Shown: one piece after another, positions 29,023 through 36,931 of the stretch
How the letters are laid out: each line of letters begins with the position of its first letter
How positions within the stretch are numbered: the stretch's first letter is position 1
Assembly: GCA_018821305.1 (NCBI GenBank)
Contig: JAHJMN010000077.1
Location: forward strand, 1-60,268
DNA: 60,268 nucleotides
Reading direction: 5' to 3'
Source of the DNA: Myxococcota bacterium
GTDB taxonomy: Bacteria; Myxococcota_A; Polyangia; HGW-17
Program-made: the position numbers and the translations under genes
The notes under the pieces: generated by a model
What the model saw: the letters and a program-made list of their open reading frames with translations, nothing else
The model's database searches: none
What the model was told of the DNA's origin: nothing

Positions 29023-30318
29023 TTAGTTTTGTTCCTTCTTACTGGAAGAAATAATTATTTTAAAAATGTCTTGAAGAAAAGTCATGTCAAGTTGATGAGT
29101 TTTTCCAAGATCTCTCCACATTTTCCAGAGGTTCTCTTCCCGGGATAGATCCTCAATGGGAAAATCATTTTCCTTTTTCAGGAGTCCAATTTTTCTGGAA
29201 ATGTTTCTTCTAGCAGATAGTATCTCAATTAGAGCCTGATCAAGTTCGTTAATACGTAGCCTGAATGTATCTATTTCGGATGATATATTTTCAATAGATT
29301 CTTGAACCATGAGAGCATCATAAATTATTATTGCAGCCATAGATTTTGCAACTTCACTTATTTTTGGAGCGAGGCATATATCATGCCTTCCAATTGTAAC
29401 GTAGGATGTAGAGTTATTATCAAAATCTGTTGTGTTAACAGGAACATTGACAGAAGGAACAGGTTTTATTGCAAGTTCTACATCAATGGTTCTCCCATTG
29501 GTAATGCCTCCAGTGATACCTCCGGAATAGTTATGTTCAACTTCTCCATTCAGGTAAATACTTCCGCGCATTTCTGGCACTTCAAACCCGGCACCAATAC
29601 TAATCCCTTTTACTCCACCGATGGACATGAGACCACCCGCTAAGAGAGCATCAAGTTTTCCGAATACCGGATCACCGAGCCCTGTTGGGACATTTTCAAT
29701 GACGACTCTAACCTTACCACCTATTGAATCACCAGCGAGGGATTGTATGTATTGTTCAATATCTGATTCCATTTCAGGATCTGGAATCCGGTAGGGGCTA
29801 TTTTTAACATAACTGATATCTTTTACTGGAAATTTGTAGGGACCGATGCTTGAAACCCATGTTTTTATATTAATATTACGACCAGAAAGAAGTTTCAAAG
29901 CAAAATATCCTGCGATCACTCTCCCAGCAGTTTCTCGACCAGAAATGCGTCCTCCTCCACGATGATCAACTATTCCAAATTTATTAAACCAACCCCATTC
30001 TCCATGTCCCGGACGAATAATATTTTTAAATTGATCATAGTCGGCCGGTCTTATATCGCGATTTTTCAAGATAATACAGATTGGAGCGCCGGTAGTTCTA
30101 TTTTCATAAATACCGGATAAGACTACAGGATCATCTTCCTCTCTACGGGAAGAAGAAAGCTTTCCTCCGGGATGTCTTGACTTGAGGAGATCCCGCAATT
30201 CGTTAATATCGAATTCTAAATTTCCACGGACTCCATCGATGACGGCGCCCACAGAAGGGCCGTGAGATTCACCGAAGGTTGTTACTGAAAAGAGTGTTCC
30301 ATAATTGTTGAACCACAT
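29023..30318 (-). CDS. aroC: chorismate synthase fused to AroQ chorismate mutase
   Basis: 431 residues carrying the last two steps of the operon: EPSP to chorismate, then chorismate to prephenate. Residues 1 to about 340 are AroC (GESHG near 16-20, GGGRISGRETAGRV at 121-134, GRHDICLAP at 310-318). Residues about 350-430 are an AroQ helical mutase: LRLRINELDQALIEILSARR, then KKEN, PIEDLSREE and the closing FKIIISSSKKEQ. These supply the mutase Arg, Lys, Asp, Arg-Glu and Ser/Gln positions known from the E. coli P-protein. The AroC signatures carry Ile in places usually filled by Ser or Pro. The start overlaps the aroK end by 50 bases, and the family's N-terminus confirms it. Confidence 0.93.
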   Translation of the reverse strand: MWFNNYGTLFSVTTFGESHGPSVGAVIDGVRGNLEFDINELRDLLKSRHPGGKLSSSRREEDDPVVLSGIYENRTTGAPICIILKNRDIRPADYDQFKNIIRPGHGEWGWFNKFGIVDHRGGGRISGRETAGRVIAGYFALKLLSGRNINIKTWVSSIGPYKFPVKDISYVKNSPYRIPDPEMESDIEQYIQSLAGDSIGGKVRVVIENVPTGLGDPVFGKLDALLAGGLMSIGGVKGISIGAGFEVPEMRGSIYLNGEVEHNYSGGITGGITNGRTIDVELAIKPVPSVNVPVNTTDFDNNSTSYVTIGRHDICLAPKISEVAKSMAAIIIYDALMVQESIENISSEIDTFRLRINELDQALIEILSARRNISRKIGLLKKENDFPIEDLSREENLWKMWRDLGKTHQLDMTFLQDIFKIIISSSKKEQN

Positions 30319-30790
30319 TAGATACTTCTTCTACCGTAAGAATTCCGGTATCAATAGAAAAAAGGGATGAATCTGCATAAAGAGGTAGACGGGAATCGTA
30401 AAGATCCGAAATTTGATTCTCGAGGTCTTCATGAGGGTTAAACAAAGGCCTCATTTCGGTTCTCATTCGTTCGACAAGTACACCTGGTGCTGTTTTGAGC
30501 CACACAGTCATGGATGAGCGCATAATCAGACGAGAAGACGGCTCAAGTACAGTTCCGCCCCCTGTGGCTATCACGGAATGATTCATTTTGGAAAGACGCT
30601 CGAATATTTTTTCTTCAGCCTGCCTGAAGCCATCCTCATCAGTTTTAAACCATTCGGAAATCTTTCTATTGTGGATATTTTGCAGGATTTCATCAGTATC
30701 GTAAAAATCGAAACCTAAAGAAGTAGATATATGCTTTCCAGCAGTAGTTTTTCCAGTTCCGGGCATTCCAGTTAAAATTATGTTTTTCAT
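30269..30790 (-). CDS. aroK: shikimate kinase
   Basis: 173 residues, the usual length. It phosphorylates shikimate at O3. Walker A GMPGTGKTT lies at residues 8-16, the shikimate-contact DTDE at about 32-35, DGFRQAEEKIF with the conserved Arg at about 53-63, and the ATGGGTV loop at about 75-81. The lid arginines are in ERMRTEMRPLF. Start ATG overlaps the aroA stop (ATGA). Its end runs 50 bases into aroC, one of the longest overlaps in the operon. Confidence 0.93.
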   Translation of the reverse strand: MKNIILTGMPGTGKTTAGKHISTSLGFDFYDTDEILQNIHNRKISEWFKTDEDGFRQAEEKIFERLSKMNHSVIATGGGTVLEPSSRLIMRSSMTVWLKTAPGVLVERMRTEMRPLFNPHEDLENQISDLYDSRLPLYADSSLFSIDTGILTVEEVSNVVQQLWNTLFSNNLR

Positions 30791-31956
30791 CGAAGTTTTT
30801 CCAATTCTGAAAAGAAATCAGGGAAACTTTTAACAGTGCAGTCTTTATTTTTAACAGAAATTCCTTTACTTACAATAGATAGAAAGCCGAATGCCATGGC
30901 CAGGCGATGATCTGCATGAGGATCCAGAGTAGCGGAGTTTTTATTTATTCCAGGATACACAGTCATTTCATTTTGAGAAATGTCAATTTTACATCCGACT
31001 TTTGCCAATTCGTTTTTTAATATTTCAGGTCTTCGGCTTTCTTTATGATATGTATGGGTAATACCTCTGATATTAATGGGATCTGAACCAAGTATCCCCG
31101 TAAGAGTCAAAGGAACAATAAGATCAGGGGTTGATGATATGTCGAATTCAAAATTTACCTGTTCATTAATTTGTTTTTGAAAGCTGTAAAAAATACTATC
31201 TCCCTGAATGCTTTTACTAAAGTCAAATTCATCGGTTCCTGATGTTAATTGAAATTCCTTTTTGAAGTGGGGTCGGAAAGCTTCAAATAACGCGGCGGCG
31301 CTTGCATCAGGCTCAACAGTTGTTTCAATTCCATCATAGATAACTGGTGAAAAAGAATACGAATCCGCATTATGAGAGAAACCAATGTTGTAATAATTTA
31401 AACACCGCTCTGTCATGGATATGTAAGTACTACTTACGGGATTAGATTTATAAGTGATTTTTGTATCAATTTTTCGTGAAGGACATACCAATATTAAAGA
31501 AGACAAAAATTGAGAGGTCAAACTGGTATCAACAAATGCTTCCGATCTGCAACTCTGCCTCTCAAGTGTCAATGGAAATTTTCCATTATGCTTTACACCT
31601 AATTTTTCAAGACTTTCTAGAAGACCCGATACAGGTCTTTTTTTCATGGAACCCTCAACATCCAGATGCAGTGGTTTATCTGAAAGCAGTGATAGCGAAG
31701 ACATAAAGCGTACTGTTGTTCCACCATCACCACAGTTTATTGGAACATCCGGAAAAAGAACAGGTGCGGGTTTTATTAAAATAGAATTACCAGTATGAAT
31801 TATCTTAATTCCGCATAATTTCATCGAATTTTCAAGAAATTTACAATCTCCTGCTCGTGAAGGATTATTTATAGTTGAAGGAGTCTGAGCAAGGGAAGAA
31901 AGAATAAGTAATCTTTGATATATGGATTTTGAAGAGGGAATGGATATTTTTATCAT
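30787..31956 (-). CDS. aroA: EPSP synthase (3-phosphoshikimate 1-carboxyvinyltransferase)
   Basis: 389 residues, somewhat shorter than the 420-440 usual for the enzyme. The PEP/shikimate-phosphate lysine is in PSSKSIYQRLL (K9), the PEP loop is CGDGGTTVRFM (in place of NAGTAMR), and MKKRPVSGLLESLEKLGVKH and DHRLAMAFGFLSI are conserved. The loop differs from glyphosate-sensitive class I enzymes, so sensitivity is uncertain. There is no clear Shine-Dalgarno, and translation is probably coupled to aroDE nine bases upstream. Confidence 0.92.
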   Translation of the reverse strand: MIKISIPSSKSIYQRLLILSSLAQTPSTINNPSRAGDCKFLENSMKLCGIKIIHTGNSILIKPAPVLFPDVPINCGDGGTTVRFMSSLSLLSDKPLHLDVEGSMKKRPVSGLLESLEKLGVKHNGKFPLTLERQSCRSEAFVDTSLTSQFLSSLILVCPSRKIDTKITYKSNPVSSTYISMTERCLNYYNIGFSHNADSYSFSPVIYDGIETTVEPDASAAALFEAFRPHFKKEFQLTSGTDEFDFSKSIQGDSIFYSFQKQINEQVNFEFDISSTPDLIVPLTLTGILGSDPINIRGITHTYHKESRRPEILKNELAKVGCKIDISQNEMTVYPGINKNSATLDPHADHRLAMAFGFLSIVSKGISVKNKDCTVKSFPDFFSELEKLR

Positions 31957-31965
31957 TTTAAAAAT

Positions 31966-33279
31966 CTACAGATCTTCAGGTCTGAACAGTTTTCCAGAAA
32001 TGATTGACATCTGAAAACTACCTTGTATTTTCCAGAAATCTAATCCCGATATAAATATAGAATATTTATTGGATGTAAAATTATTGGTGTAATCGAGATC
32101 CAGAAGAATTGAATCCATTGCTTTGGGCAATAAACTGAAAGGGTGTTCCGGTACATTTACTCCAACGGGAATCGTATTTATAAAAAGAGTACTGGTATCC
32201 AGACAGAGTTTACTTAGATCTGTTTTTCTTGATACAATGACAATATCGTCGATTACCCCAATGTTGTTCAGAGCTGAAACGGCACAGTGAGAAGTAGCGC
32301 CATCTCCTGCAATGACAACTTGATTGAATTTGAGAGTAGAAAAAATATCAATAAAAGCAAGGTAATCAGTATTGTATCCAATAAAAACATTATTGATATT
32401 CACAATAGTATTTACACTTCCGGCTTTTTCCGCTGAAATATCTAATTCATGACAGAATCTTAAGAAATCCTTCTTATGAGGCATTGTTACAGATGCCCCT
32501 GGACTTCCCGTGAATTCAAGAAATTCAACAGGATTAAAACCTTCCTTACAAACATGATTTATGTAACATAGTTCAAGTCCAGAGTCTGTGAACAACTTAT
32601 TATATATTTTCATTCCGGGACTTTTAGAAATCTGATTTCCACCAAAAAGAAAGACAGGCTTCAATCCTGTAATGTTAATTCTGGATTGAAGAGCCAAAGC
32701 AAGATCAATCTGACCTGAATCCGTACTGGATTCTTTCGAAGTTGAAAGATAGGTCATATAACTGTTATAATCGCGATACCTCAGTCTTGTAAATAGGCCG
32801 CTTTTTCCCGTTGCAATAAGAACACTGTCTGGAAATAGACCGGATAAAGCTAATAGATTCTGGTATTCCTGCACGGATTGAGCATTTACAGCAAATTTAA
32901 AACGATATCCCCGAAATTTCAGCAGCAGGTCCGTAATGGAATTCAGATTTGAGATATTTCCGTGATAACTTATCATTATTTCCTGAGGAGAGAAGTGGTT
33001 TTCAATGAACACAGTTTCGGAAAGAAATTTTTCAAGTTCAATATCAATAAGGAAATAGTCAAGTTTTGAAAAGATTTCAAGTAATGCAAGAGATTGAATA
33101 AAATCATTAGATCTATGGGTTATTATCAATCTTGATTTCCAGGGAATTAACTGTTCAGGTAAATTGTCAGTTATATTATCAAGTAGATCTAGACGAACTT
33201 CGTTTATATAATCACTGTTGGATTTTATACGACAAATCAGTTTCTCAAGGGTGTTTTCGTTGCCACTGAGGCAGATCAT
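31966..33279 (-). CDS. aroDE: bifunctional 3-dehydroquinate dehydratase / shikimate dehydrogenase
   Basis: 437 residues catalysing two consecutive steps. Residues 1 to about 198 are a type I (Schiff base) dehydroquinase: EVRLDLL, His106 in ISYHG and Lys128 in RFKFAVNAQS. Residues about 205-437 are shikimate dehydrogenase: SKSPGM for shikimate binding, Lys269 in VTMPHKK, NTD at 303-305, the GDGATSHCAV nucleotide loop and FINTIPVGV. The order is that of plant and chlamydial AroDE. GGAG lies seven bases before the ATG. The gene overlaps the aroB end by 35 bases. Confidence 0.93.
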   Translation of the reverse strand: MICLSGNENTLEKLICRIKSNSDYINEVRLDLLDNITDNLPEQLIPWKSRLIITHRSNDFIQSLALLEIFSKLDYFLIDIELEKFLSETVFIENHFSPQEIMISYHGNISNLNSITDLLLKFRGYRFKFAVNAQSVQEYQNLLALSGLFPDSVLIATGKSGLFTRLRYRDYNSYMTYLSTSKESSTDSGQIDLALALQSRINITGLKPVFLFGGNQISKSPGMKIYNKLFTDSGLELCYINHVCKEGFNPVEFLEFTGSPGASVTMPHKKDFLRFCHELDISAEKAGSVNTIVNINNVFIGYNTDYLAFIDIFSTLKFNQVVIAGDGATSHCAVSALNNIGVIDDIVIVSRKTDLSKLCLDTSTLFINTIPVGVNVPEHPFSLLPKAMDSILLDLDYTNNFTSNKYSIFISGLDFWKIQGSFQMSIISGKLFRPEDL

Positions 33280-34312
33280 TCTGAAACTCCATTATTTTGC
33301 GTAAAACTAAATCCTCCGATGCTTCAAGGATTGGATCCGGGGAAACATACGATGGGGAAGAAAACCGTAGGCAGGTGTTTAAATTTTTTTTATCGCTAAT
33401 TGCATGCTGCAGTATTGTGTATGGATCTGGGAGAGCAAGATCTTTAAATAAAGATTCTGGAAAAAAGTTGGAAGGTAAAAAAATATCTTTTCCAGTCAGT
33501 TCCTTTAATATTGAGTGTTCAATTATTAGTCCGATAGCCACTGCTCTCCCGTGAGAAAGTCCAGCAGAAGTTTCTAAAGCATGACCAATAGTATGACCGG
33601 CATTTAAACGCAGTCTATTTCCTTTTTCAAAAGGATCTTCAGAGGTTATTTTTATTTTATAAAGTGCGGATTGAATCAGAATATTTAAATAACTATCATT
33701 AATAGTAACCGGATCATTTTCTCCAGGGTAATTTTGTTTTAAAAAGGCATTTATATTTTTAAGAAGATCTTCGTTTTCAAGTAAACCATGCTTTATGGTT
33801 TCAATAAATCCTTCCATATGTTGAATAGCCGGAAGAGTCTTCAGAAATCCAGGATAGAAAATGATTTTTTCAGGGAAATACCAACTTCCCGCCATGTTTT
33901 TACGATTTGAAAGATTGACAGCATTTTTTCCGCCGATAGATGCATCGCAAACGGCTAAGACAGTGGTTGGGAAAAAAAGTGCTTTGAGTCCACGGTGGTA
34001 CATACTGCAAGCAAGACCGGCGGTATCAAGGACACTTCCACCACCTATGCAGGCAACGGTTGATTTGCGGCTGAGGGACGATTTCATCATTTCTTCGCAT
34101 AAAATTTCAACAACACTGAAATTTTTGTCTTCCTCACCTTTAAGTAAAAAATAATCTTTATTATCGATTAGTTCTTTGTGGAGAAAATATACATTATGAT
34201 CACAAATGACAAAGTCTGAGTTTTTTATACAATCTTTTGTACCGTTATATGAACCTGAAAAAAAAGCTGTATTGTGCTCCTGATGATATTTATTTTGTGA
34301 TATTAGTTTCAT
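33245..34312 (-). CDS. aroB: 3-dehydroquinate synthase
   Basis: 355 residues, typical length. It converts DAHP to 3-dehydroquinate using NAD and a divalent metal. NAD-site motifs GGGSVLDTAG and PTTVLAVCDASIGGKNAVNL are visible, as are metal-binding and catalytic segments ETIKHGLL and NAGHTIGHALE and the following HGRAVAIGL. It starts eight bases after aroF and overlaps aroDE by 35 bases. Confidence 0.95.
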   Translation of the reverse strand: MKLISQNKYHQEHNTAFFSGSYNGTKDCIKNSDFVICDHNVYFLHKELIDNKDYFLLKGEEDKNFSVVEILCEEMMKSSLSRKSTVACIGGGSVLDTAGLACSMYHRGLKALFFPTTVLAVCDASIGGKNAVNLSNRKNMAGSWYFPEKIIFYPGFLKTLPAIQHMEGFIETIKHGLLENEDLLKNINAFLKQNYPGENDPVTINDSYLNILIQSALYKIKITSEDPFEKGNRLRLNAGHTIGHALETSAGLSHGRAVAIGLIIEHSILKELTGKDIFLPSNFFPESLFKDLALPDPYTILQHAISDKKNLNTCLRFSSPSYVSPDPILEASEDLVLRKIMEFQNDLPQWQRKHP

Positions 34313-34320
34313 TGAAAAGT

Positions 34321-35097
34321 TCAGTATATCTGTCTATTGTCGTTGATGAGGTTAAGACGATCTATCAGAGTTTTAAAGTCATTGTGATTAAGGCTCTGAG
34401 CTCCGTCAGACATGGCGTTTTCCGGATCATGATGAACTTCAACCATCAGTCCATCTGCTCCTGCAGCCCGGGAGGCCATAGCCAGAGGAATAACCATATT
34501 TTTTATGCCTGCCGCATGAGACGGATCAACAATTACAGGCCAGGGAGTTAGTTCTCTAACTCGAATGACGGCAGCCAGATCGAGGGTAAACCGACTTGAA
34601 TCTGAAAAAGTCCTGATGCCGCGCTCACACATAATTATCCTGGAATTTCCCTGTCTGTGGATATAATTTGCTGCATTAATCCACTCGGTGACAGTCGAAC
34701 CGAATCCACGTTTGAGTATTACAGGCTTATCTGTGCGTCCAATGGCCTCCAAAAGAGCGTAATTATGCATAGATCTGGCTCCAACCTGTATAATATCAAG
34801 ATGTTGTACCAGAATTTCAAGTTGCGATGTGTCCTGTGCTTCACTGATGGTATGCATATTGAATGAATTGCCAACCCTTGAAAGCATTCTAACACCATCC
34901 GCTGCGAGCCCCTGGAAACTTTCTGGAGCAGTTCGAGCCTTAAAAGTGCCACCACGAAGAAATTTGATGCCCATGGAGTTCAGAAAAGATGCTTCCTTAT
35001 TGATCTGTTCCTCAGATTCAATAGCGCAGGGTCCTGCGATTATATTAAAAACGCGCTCATTATTCAGGGAGTTATATAGATCATCTGAAATTGACAT
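34321..35097 (-). CDS. aroF: DAHP synthase, type I-beta
   Basis: 258 residues. It condenses PEP and erythrose 4-phosphate, the first step of the pathway. Conserved pieces are IAGPCAIES, GIKFLRGGTFKARTAPESFQ, QVGARSMHNYALL, ILKRGFGST, MCERGIRTF, DPSHAAGI and LMVEVHHDPENAMSDGAQS. The length shows only the catalytic barrel: the ferredoxin-like N-terminal regulatory domain is missing, and no mutase is fused to it, so feedback control must come from elsewhere if it exists. The start overlaps the U32 gene end by 17 bases. Confidence 0.95.
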   Translation of the reverse strand: MSISDDLYNSLNNERVFNIIAGPCAIESEEQINKEASFLNSMGIKFLRGGTFKARTAPESFQGLAADGVRMLSRVGNSFNMHTISEAQDTSQLEILVQHLDIIQVGARSMHNYALLEAIGRTDKPVILKRGFGSTVTEWINAANYIHRQGNSRIIMCERGIRTFSDSSRFTLDLAAVIRVRELTPWPVIVDPSHAAGIKNMVIPLAMASRAAGADGLMVEVHHDPENAMSDGAQSLNHNDFKTLIDRLNLINDNRQIY

Positions 35098-36319
35098 TTT
35101 TTACTTCTTTCAGAACAAAGAATTTGTCCCCTGTTCTTACTTTAACATCTGTGGAAGGCCTGATACCATAAAGTCCACCTTTTTTACCGATGTTGATGGA
35201 CTGATTTTCGTTATTTTCGATGGAAACAATTGTTCCTTCGAGAAAACCGGTTGTTGTCCCGGTTATAATAAAATGATCACCAACGGTGACATCAAAAGAA
35301 AAAGCGTTCAGATCAAATACATTTATTCTAGAATAATATTTTTCTATACGACCGACATAAAGCTTTTTAAATTTAGATGCATTGTTTTCAATGGTTGAAA
35401 AATCATCTGAAGTGGGCAGTCCCAGATAAAACCCAGTATGGTAACCTTTGCTGTAAACTTTTTCAATTTCCGACATGAGTGAAGTCTTCATATCAGTTGT
35501 AAAATTTCCCACTTTAACAGCATCAATTGCTTTTCTATAGCAGGATGTAACAGTGTGGACATAATAAGGGTCTCGGTTTCGGCCTTCTATTTTTAGTATA
35601 TCGATACCTGCGTAGATGAGTCTATCAACAATGGGTAGCGTACAAAGATCCTTGGGGCTGAAAATTGTGTGACGATCAAAAGCGATTTGATTGCCCGTTT
35701 CCATATCCGTAGCTAAATATTTTCTTCTACAAGGCTGAAGGCATTCACCACGATTTCCGCTTTTTTCATATAAATGCTCAGAGAAAAAACATCTTCCACT
35801 TATGGCTACGCACATTGCACCATGGGCAAAACATTCAATATTAAGGGAACTACCTCGATCAATCAGACCATTTTTTATGGTTGTGATATTTTCAAGACTT
35901 AACTCTCTTGCAAAAACAATTGTTTTGGCTCCCAGGGCCTCCCACATAAGTGCACTTTCCAGATTAGTGCATCCTGCCTGAGTGGAAACTGTTAAGGAAA
36001 GATCAAAATCTCGAATCATTTTAACAACTGAAAGATCCCATGCGATGATGTTATGGATTCCAGAGGAAACTGCTGTCTCCAGTATGCGTTTAATCCGGAT
36101 CTCTTCACCGGGAAAGACTATTGTGTTCAGTGTCAGAAAGGGAATAACAGAATATTCTGAACAAATCCTGGAAATCAGATCAAGTTCAGAAAGCTCGAAA
36201 TTTCGGGCTGAAGCACGCATGTTCATTCCGCTTACACCAAAATAGACTGCATCGGCACCAGCTTTTATTGCTGCCATAAGAGTTTCCCGATTTCCGCAGG
36301 GAGATAATAAACGAGTCAA
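35081..36319 (-). CDS. U32-family protein (TrhP/RlhA-type RNA hydroxylase), head of shikimate operon
   Basis: About 412 residues. The barrel begins LLSPCGNRETLMAAIKAGAD followed by AVYFG, and has the family's cysteines in CFAHGAMCVAISGRCFFS and GECLQPCRRKY, then ILKIEGRNRDPYYV. This fits the U32 peptidase-like family whose E. coli members TrhP and RlhA perform 5-hydroxylation of tRNA U34 and 23S rRNA C2501. These reactions are known to need prephenate and iron-sulfur-type cysteines. Here it heads the operon that makes prephenate. The start is TTG at 36319 (GGAGG six to seven bases before it); the TTG at 36325 is too close. The end overlaps aroF by 17 bases. Confidence 0.85.
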   Translation of the reverse strand: MTRLLSPCGNRETLMAAIKAGADAVYFGVSGMNMRASARNFELSELDLISRICSEYSVIPFLTLNTIVFPGEEIRIKRILETAVSSGIHNIIAWDLSVVKMIRDFDLSLTVSTQAGCTNLESALMWEALGAKTIVFARELSLENITTIKNGLIDRGSSLNIECFAHGAMCVAISGRCFFSEHLYEKSGNRGECLQPCRRKYLATDMETGNQIAFDRHTIFSPKDLCTLPIVDRLIYAGIDILKIEGRNRDPYYVHTVTSCYRKAIDAVKVGNFTTDMKTSLMSEIEKVYSKGYHTGFYLGLPTSDDFSTIENNASKFKKLYVGRIEKYYSRINVFDLNAFSFDVTVGDHFIITGTTTGFLEGTIVSIENNENQSINIGKKGGLYGIRPSTDVKVRTGDKFFVLKEVKNVNFR

Positions 36320-36327
36320 AAACAATC

Positions 36328-36354
36328 CTCCCTTTTCTGTCCAGAGACAGGGAG
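36328..36354 (-). promoter_or_regulatory. hairpin covering the ribosome binding site of the shikimate operon
   Basis: On the minus strand CTCC pairs with GGAG (36351-36354 with 36328-36331) outside a perfect CTGTC/GACAG stem (36337-36341, 36346-36350), with a 4-base loop and a bulge. GGAGG is the Shine-Dalgarno of the first gene, so the fold would hide it. Function as translational control is inference. Confidence 0.45.
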
Positions 36355-36475: not shown

Positions 36476-36931
36476 ATGATTCTTAAAGTAAAAAAACATT
36501 TAAAAAATAATAAGACACAGTGCAGGACATTTTCTTCAAGGCATCAGGATATCTGTTTTGATTTCCGGGATATACCAGATATGAGCGATATTGATTTTTC
36601 AACGTCCTGGAATCTTAAACGCCTTCTTGAATGGGAAAGAACAAGAATATGGACCGCAAGACGTAATATTGAAAACATGTCAACAGAGCTTTCGATGTAC
36701 TTATTCGGGGGAATTGAAAATGGTATTGAGTTTGGAGAAATGACAGACGTTTTGTTATTTATAGAAAGAAGCTGGGTTGTGTTACTATATGATCGGATAT
36801 GGGGGAATATGATCAGAAAGGCGGGAATTGATGAAAAAGTACTCGAAAGAGGATCTTTGCTCTGCCAGAGAGTTATTGAAGAGACAATAAAAGAACGAAA
36901 GAAAATGACATCAACTTCAATTTACTGGTAA
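36476..36931 (+). CDS. hypothetical protein
   Basis: 151 residues, cytoplasmic, no recognised domain. It is rich in Arg, Glu, Ile and Trp and mostly helical after residue 40 (WNLKRLLEWERTRIWTARRN). An excellent AAAGGAGGG lies nine bases before the ATG, which supports real translation. It diverges from the shikimate operon, sharing a 150-base promoter region, and precedes the HAD phosphatase gene on the same strand. Confidence 0.65.
   Translation: MILKVKKHLKNNKTQCRTFSSRHQDICFDFRDIPDMSDIDFSTSWNLKRLLEWERTRIWTARRNIENMSTELSMYLFGGIENGIEFGEMTDVLLFIERSWVVLLYDRIWGNMIRKAGIDEKVLERGSLLCQRVIEETIKERKKMTSTSIYW

Follow-up and report, generated by a model that had tools for sequence, protein, structure and literature searches.

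The window analysed in this study, a stretch of 60,268 nucleotides from a Myxococcota genome (assembly GCA_018821305.1, contig JAHJMN010000077.1), contains a shikimate operon whose genes all lie on the minus strand in the order U32-aroF-aroB-aroDE-aroA-aroK-aroC::CM, which either overlap or lie no more than 9 nt apart. The gene for a U32-family protein was called by the ORF tool at 35081-36325 and matched Pfam Peptidase_U32 (PF01136) with E=1.1e-66 (224.9 bits; cut-off 22.4). Because its upstream neighbour at 36476 is oriented oppositely, the U32 gene is the first gene of the operon, as the first-pass annotation had stated. The likelier start is a TTG at 36319, which would give a protein of 412 aa (35081-36319), since this codon is spaced 6 nt from a Shine-Dalgarno-like GGGAGGA read directly at 36326-36332, whereas the in-frame TTG at 36325 abuts that element. 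The second gene, aroF (34321-35097), encodes a type I-beta DAHP synthase (TIGR01361, 320.7 bits; cut-off 267.75) and overlaps the U32 gene by exactly the 17 nt first proposed (35081-35097). It is followed by aroB, encoding a divergent 3-dehydroquinate synthase recognized by profile matches (33245-34312); aroDE, a divergent type I dehydroquinase fused with shikimate dehydrogenase (31966-33279); aroA, EPSP synthase (30787-31956); aroK, shikimate kinase (30269-30790); and aroC::CM, a chorismate synthase that carries an AroQ chorismate mutase at its C-terminus (CM_2; 29023-30318). Pfam matches above cut-off were obtained for chorismate mutase and for each of the seven steps that begin with DAHP synthase and end with chorismate synthase, in agreement with the earlier reading of an operon that runs from DAHP to prephenate and ends in a fused mutase. 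As judged from the reading frames and profiles, the gene set is complete from DAHP to prephenate, and the U32 gene is translationally coupled with the aro genes. A search for a riboswitch or leader RNA before the operon gave no Rfam match within the window.

The mutase domain of aroC::CM comprises residues 353-430 (29029-29262), and R12, R29, K40, D49 and R52 of the aligned segment, which we take to be the AroQ active-site set, were invariant. The AroDE segments SYH, KfAv, SvTMPhK and NTD, assigned to the active site by inspection, were retained in an alignment of five genomes of the family. The mutase domain has changed partner. In the window's family it is found at the aroC C-terminus (in the window and at three other loci), and in the sister families f2 and f4 it is fused at the N-terminus of the DAHP synthase (three loci); unlike the DAHP synthases of the sister families, the AroF of the window is without this N-terminal domain. 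Separately, the chorismate synthase of genome G012 (locus L176, 2236-3603) carries a C-terminal extension of about 70 residues with no match to the mutase profile.

Prephenate is viewed as an intermediate on the way to phenylalanine and tyrosine. The models used for its consumers and those of chorismate were prephenate dehydratase (PDT, PF00800), TyrA (PF02153) and the chorismate-binding enzymes TrpE, PabB, MenF and EntC (PF00425), and each of the three matched in all 14 control genomes (14 of 14). These models gave no match above cut-off to PDT, TyrA or a chorismate-binding enzyme in any of the family's five genomes with the pathway; non-homologous consumers such as a PheC-type dehydratase, the chorismate lyase UbiC, chorismatases and CmoA lie beyond their reach. 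Across the 13 genomes of the order, the three models exceeded their cut-offs in family f2 only, and MqnA/MqnD (PF02621) were found nowhere. By these profiles, the genomes of the family have no detectable enzymes of the phenylalanine, tyrosine, tryptophan, pABA, isochorismate or futalosine branches. Three candidates were set aside during this search: the single sub-threshold TyrA match, in the window genome, was ProC; CmoB as a second prephenate user was represented by a best PF08003 match of 26.6 bits in the window genome, a partial generic methyltransferase match; and a futalosine route to menaquinone, as an explanation for keeping the pathway, was rejected for want of MqnA/MqnD in the order. 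Since the pathway ends at prephenate without a classical consumer, the U32 protein is the only visible candidate for a prephenate user.

Among the alternatives, the one that survives best is that aromatic products are still made by unrecognized enzymes, for example a PheC-type dehydratase, and that the U32 protein merely gains from co-expression. We regard this as unlikely, because three independent branches (PheA, TyrA and TrpE-type) would have to have escaped detection in five genomes with models that found every control, and because all three types of enzyme were found in the sister family f2 (G008, G011). The observation that speaks most for it comes from G010, a 97% complete genome of family f4 in the same order, which has CM-aroF, aroDE, aroA, aroK, aroC and a second mutase, lacks every tested consumer and yields no U32 match better than a weak one (E=5e-11). 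As a potential counter-example, G010 leaves two readings: either its weak U32 match is the prephenate user or the order has some other use for prephenate or chorismate. As the pathway of G010 may serve something else, the pathway described here might do so too.

A reduced shikimate pathway is known from Chlamydia, in which it is kept for menaquinone, lacks the aromatic amino acid branches and includes a fused AroDE. The pathway in the window's family is likewise retained without these branches and likewise has a fused AroDE, but it differs in the absence of MqnA/MqnD and the presence of a chorismate mutase, which indicates that the route leads past chorismate to prephenate. Moreover, the operon shares its DAHP-to-chorismate enzymes with standard aro operons and differs from them in that a U32 gene stands first, the mutase is carried on the chorismate synthase C-terminus, and no PheA, TyrA or TrpE was detected in the genome.

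Previous investigations have reported that the hydroxylation carried out by two U32 proteins, TrhP (tRNA U34) and RlhA (23S rRNA C2501), requires prephenate (PMC6599085). Furthermore, prephenate has been reported as the oxygen donor in anaerobic ubiquinone synthesis (PMC11574389), in which the U32 proteins UbiU and UbiV act on ubiquinone precursors (PMC10470549). The role of prephenate in RNA hydroxylation came to light through genetics in E. coli and B. subtilis, and catalysis has yet to be demonstrated directly (PMC6599085, PMC11574389). A general model calls for caution, because ho5U in Pseudomonas aeruginosa rose rather than fell on loss of aroB/aroC (PMC12300143), and in other bacteria TrhO makes ho5U from O2 (PMC6599085). 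E162, C170 and C177 are needed in E. coli TrhP, as are their counterparts E161, C169 and C176 in RlhA (PMC6599085), while CX6CX15CX3C has been described as the U32 oxidase motif (PMC11574389). In the window protein, this motif is exact and, together with E162, constitutes the presumed 4Fe-4S site (C170, C177, C193 and C197, numbered from 36319; 35729-35836); all five residues were invariant across 32 aligned sequences, so the functional residues of the family are in place.

The resemblance to TrhP and RlhA noted in the first-pass annotation held for the U32 domain and these residues, and did not extend to orthology with either. Like TrhP (YegQ), the window protein has the same E162/C170/C177 numbering, the same cysteine motif and a similar length, with 28% identity over 428 aa, but it falls below the NCBIfam equivalog cut-off for TrhP (173.9 of 534 bits), as it does below those for UbiU (135.8 of 440) and UbiV (41.2 of 275). 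With RlhA it shares the U32 domain and the Fe-S motif, the two being 34.6% identical across a 266-aa stretch in the first domain, but E. coli RlhA has 653 aa and belongs to another clade, and the 412-aa window protein has no DUF3656 match. In a tree of 113 rows, the window protein fell into its own subfamily of about 410 aa, separate from TrhP, RlhA and UbiU/UbiV. Because the protein is orthologous to neither TrhP nor RlhA, the RNA target named earlier cannot be assigned to it. E. coli trhP, unlike the gene in the window, is not adjacent to aro genes.

The same subfamily also occurs in Chlorobiota, Verrucomicrobiota, Ignavibacteriota, Aquificota, Alistipes, Patescibacteria and DPANN archaea. 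Fourteen of the loci belong to DPANN archaea or Patescibacteria, groups that, to our knowledge, usually lack the shikimate pathway, and this occurrence of close homologues speaks against the reading of the operon favoured below. At seven Alistipes loci, the gene lies directly beside a polyprenyl-synthase-like gene, and at five of these loci MqnB-like and MqnD-like genes were seen by eye about 2-5 kb downstream. In Chlorobiaceae (seven loci), it lies upstream of a conserved cluster that, by eye, is soluble-hydrogenase-like. Beyond such lineage-specific synteny, no conserved non-aro neighbour of the subfamily was found outside the window's family. Additionally, the window genome encodes a second U32 protein of 748 aa on a long branch outside the RlhA clade (contig C31; locus L052, 7532-9775), whereas G001, of the same genus, does encode an RlhA-clade protein, away from the operon.

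An AlphaFold model of the U32 protein (pLDDT 89.8) found its best solved-fold match in 5D88, a U32 protein; a sequence search of solved structures with the window protein gave no match. The C-terminal domain (35084-35377) was modelled alone as a beta-barrel with a pLDDT of 93; it resembled the U32 C-terminal domain 4HE6 (rmsd 1.2 A, TMq 0.76) and IF2 7UNT (TMq 0.80), and the domain II barrel of EF-Tu was also matched. By sequence, Peptidase_U32_C was sub-threshold and seen in the G001 protein only. Since the predicted barrel is common to IF2 and EF-Tu, and since UbiU and UbiV (331 and 292 aa) are too short to hold one, the model favours an RNA or ribosome partner, and with it a tRNA or ribosomal site of action.

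These structural data bear on a second alternative, that what the U32 protein hydroxylates is not RNA but, for example, a quinone or lipid, or that it works as a protease, in line with the older name of the family; we consider this improbable. UbiU and UbiV, from the same superfamily, provide its precedent, and the window's subfamily is that of neither RNA hydroxylase. The predicted barrel counts against it, as does the lack of room for one in UbiU and UbiV. These two proteins also have no uninterrupted CX6CX15CX3C and act as a pair. Nor is a quinone ring synthesized by the cell a likely substrate, since a search confined to menaquinone found neither the futalosine nor the isochorismate route.

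The window's family was sampled with eight genomes, five of which carry the pathway, all as drafts: the window genome (97.7% complete), G001 (95%), G002 (92%), G003 (77%) and G005 (73%). The full operon is present in G001, which belongs to the window's genus. In G005, of another genus, U32-aroF-aroB-aroDE-aroA-aroK is followed soon after by the end of the contig, and in G003 the U32 gene lies at the end of one contig and aroF-aroB-aroDE-aroA-aroK...aroC::CM at the end of a second, which is consistent with the same U32-aroF arrangement. In G002, of a third genus, U32 and aroF form a two-gene unit with a convergent gene after aroF, aroB-aroDE-aroA-aroK-aroC::CM lie in a separate cluster, and the aroF-linked gene is the only U32 gene. 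The U32-aroF pair is therefore conserved in the three pathway-bearing genera of the family, at 44-60% protein identity, and it looks like a unit under selection since G002 keeps it apart from the other aro genes. That the U32/aroF junction is ATGA in both G001 and G002, and that the gene order recurs in G001 and G005, indicate that the arrangement is not due to chance. No U32, aroF, aroC or mutase was found in the three genomes of g4, the fourth genus of the family, which are 70-88% complete.

Outside the family, the surroundings of 76 U32 genes were examined in stretches of about 6 kb on each side where the contig allowed, the genes having been chosen mainly by U32 score and their neighbours not being known beforehand. 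At 13 of these 76 loci, a small AroQ mutase was found within about 1.1 kb of the U32 gene, where random placement predicts 0.097. These 13 loci, two of which were checked with Pfam, are spread over eight genera in three other families of the class; eight pairs are head-to-head, three are divergent with about 1 kb between the genes, one is in tandem upstream and one in tandem downstream. Genes for the steps leading to chorismate were found at none of the 76 loci. The mutase-paired U32 proteins form a separate subfamily of greater length, and those that were checked contain DUF3656; this points to at least two origins of a link to prephenate supply. In four genomes of family f25, the paired mutase is the sole mutase found, and no PDT match was obtained in any of the 13 genomes of that family. 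None of 16 high-scoring stand-alone mutases was near a U32 gene, so that only some mutases are paired in this way. At the level of whole genomes, strong U32 presence accompanied mutase presence (140 of 146 genomes versus 122 of 172; Fisher 1e-9, ignoring shared ancestry). A U32-family match was found in 41 of 43 genomes with a mutase and no PDT (32 strong and 9 weak, from 11 families), compared with 120 of 219 genomes with both (Fisher 7e-8, again ignoring shared ancestry); genome incompleteness adds noise to all of these profile counts.

The distribution is thus narrower than first stated, U32-aroF being conserved in one family, and mutase and U32 being paired independently and more widely across the class. 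The proposed adjacency of U32 and aro genes was conserved within the window's family and absent near the 78 closest homologues outside it. It is very improbable that the U32-aro neighbourhood is an inherited accident of this family without functional meaning, even though the family is small and no aro gene lay in the flanking sequence, up to 8 kb, retrieved around those 78 homologues, because the U32-aroF pair outlives the break-up of the operon in G002 and is conserved in three genera at the identities given above, and because a different U32 subfamily has been linked independently to chorismate mutase, head-to-head and in both tandem arrangements.

On balance, we lean towards the reading that the operon makes prephenate for the product of its own first gene. 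The deliberate link to prephenate supply that had been suggested from the gene order was strengthened by the missing consumers and by the chorismate mutase beside a different U32 subfamily, and remains partly supported as a whole: genome evidence supports the connection between prephenate and U32 well, and the substrate and chemistry are proposed by analogy with TrhP and RlhA. In the proposed mechanism, the U32 protein would hold a 4Fe-4S cluster and act as an O2-independent hydroxylase, through which prephenate would donate a hydroxyl to the 5-position of a tRNA or rRNA pyrimidine. Co-translation would tie the supply of the donor to the amount of the enzyme. Aromatic amino acids would be imported, and the shikimate pathway would be kept mainly to supply the hydroxyl donor. 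The stricter form of this proposal holds that the pathway is retained solely to provide the oxygen donor, prephenate, with which RNA is hydroxylated, that all aromatic amino acids are imported, and that the tie between chorismate mutase and U32, with loss of PDT, evolved two or more times within the class, involving different U32 subfamilies; we put this forward tentatively, as possible but somewhat short of an even chance.

In the literature covered, with most subscription journals outside its scope, no description was found of a U32 gene with a shikimate operon or with chorismate mutase. The mutase-U32 pairs provide numerous additional cases for testing and, for U32 proteins that have not been assigned, a genomic marker, and the locus described here offers a one-operon system for reconstitution. 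If the proposal is true, a lineage with the whole pathway and U32 as its sole visible user would be natural evidence for prephenate as the physiological donor and for RNA modification being worth an entire pathway to these bacteria.
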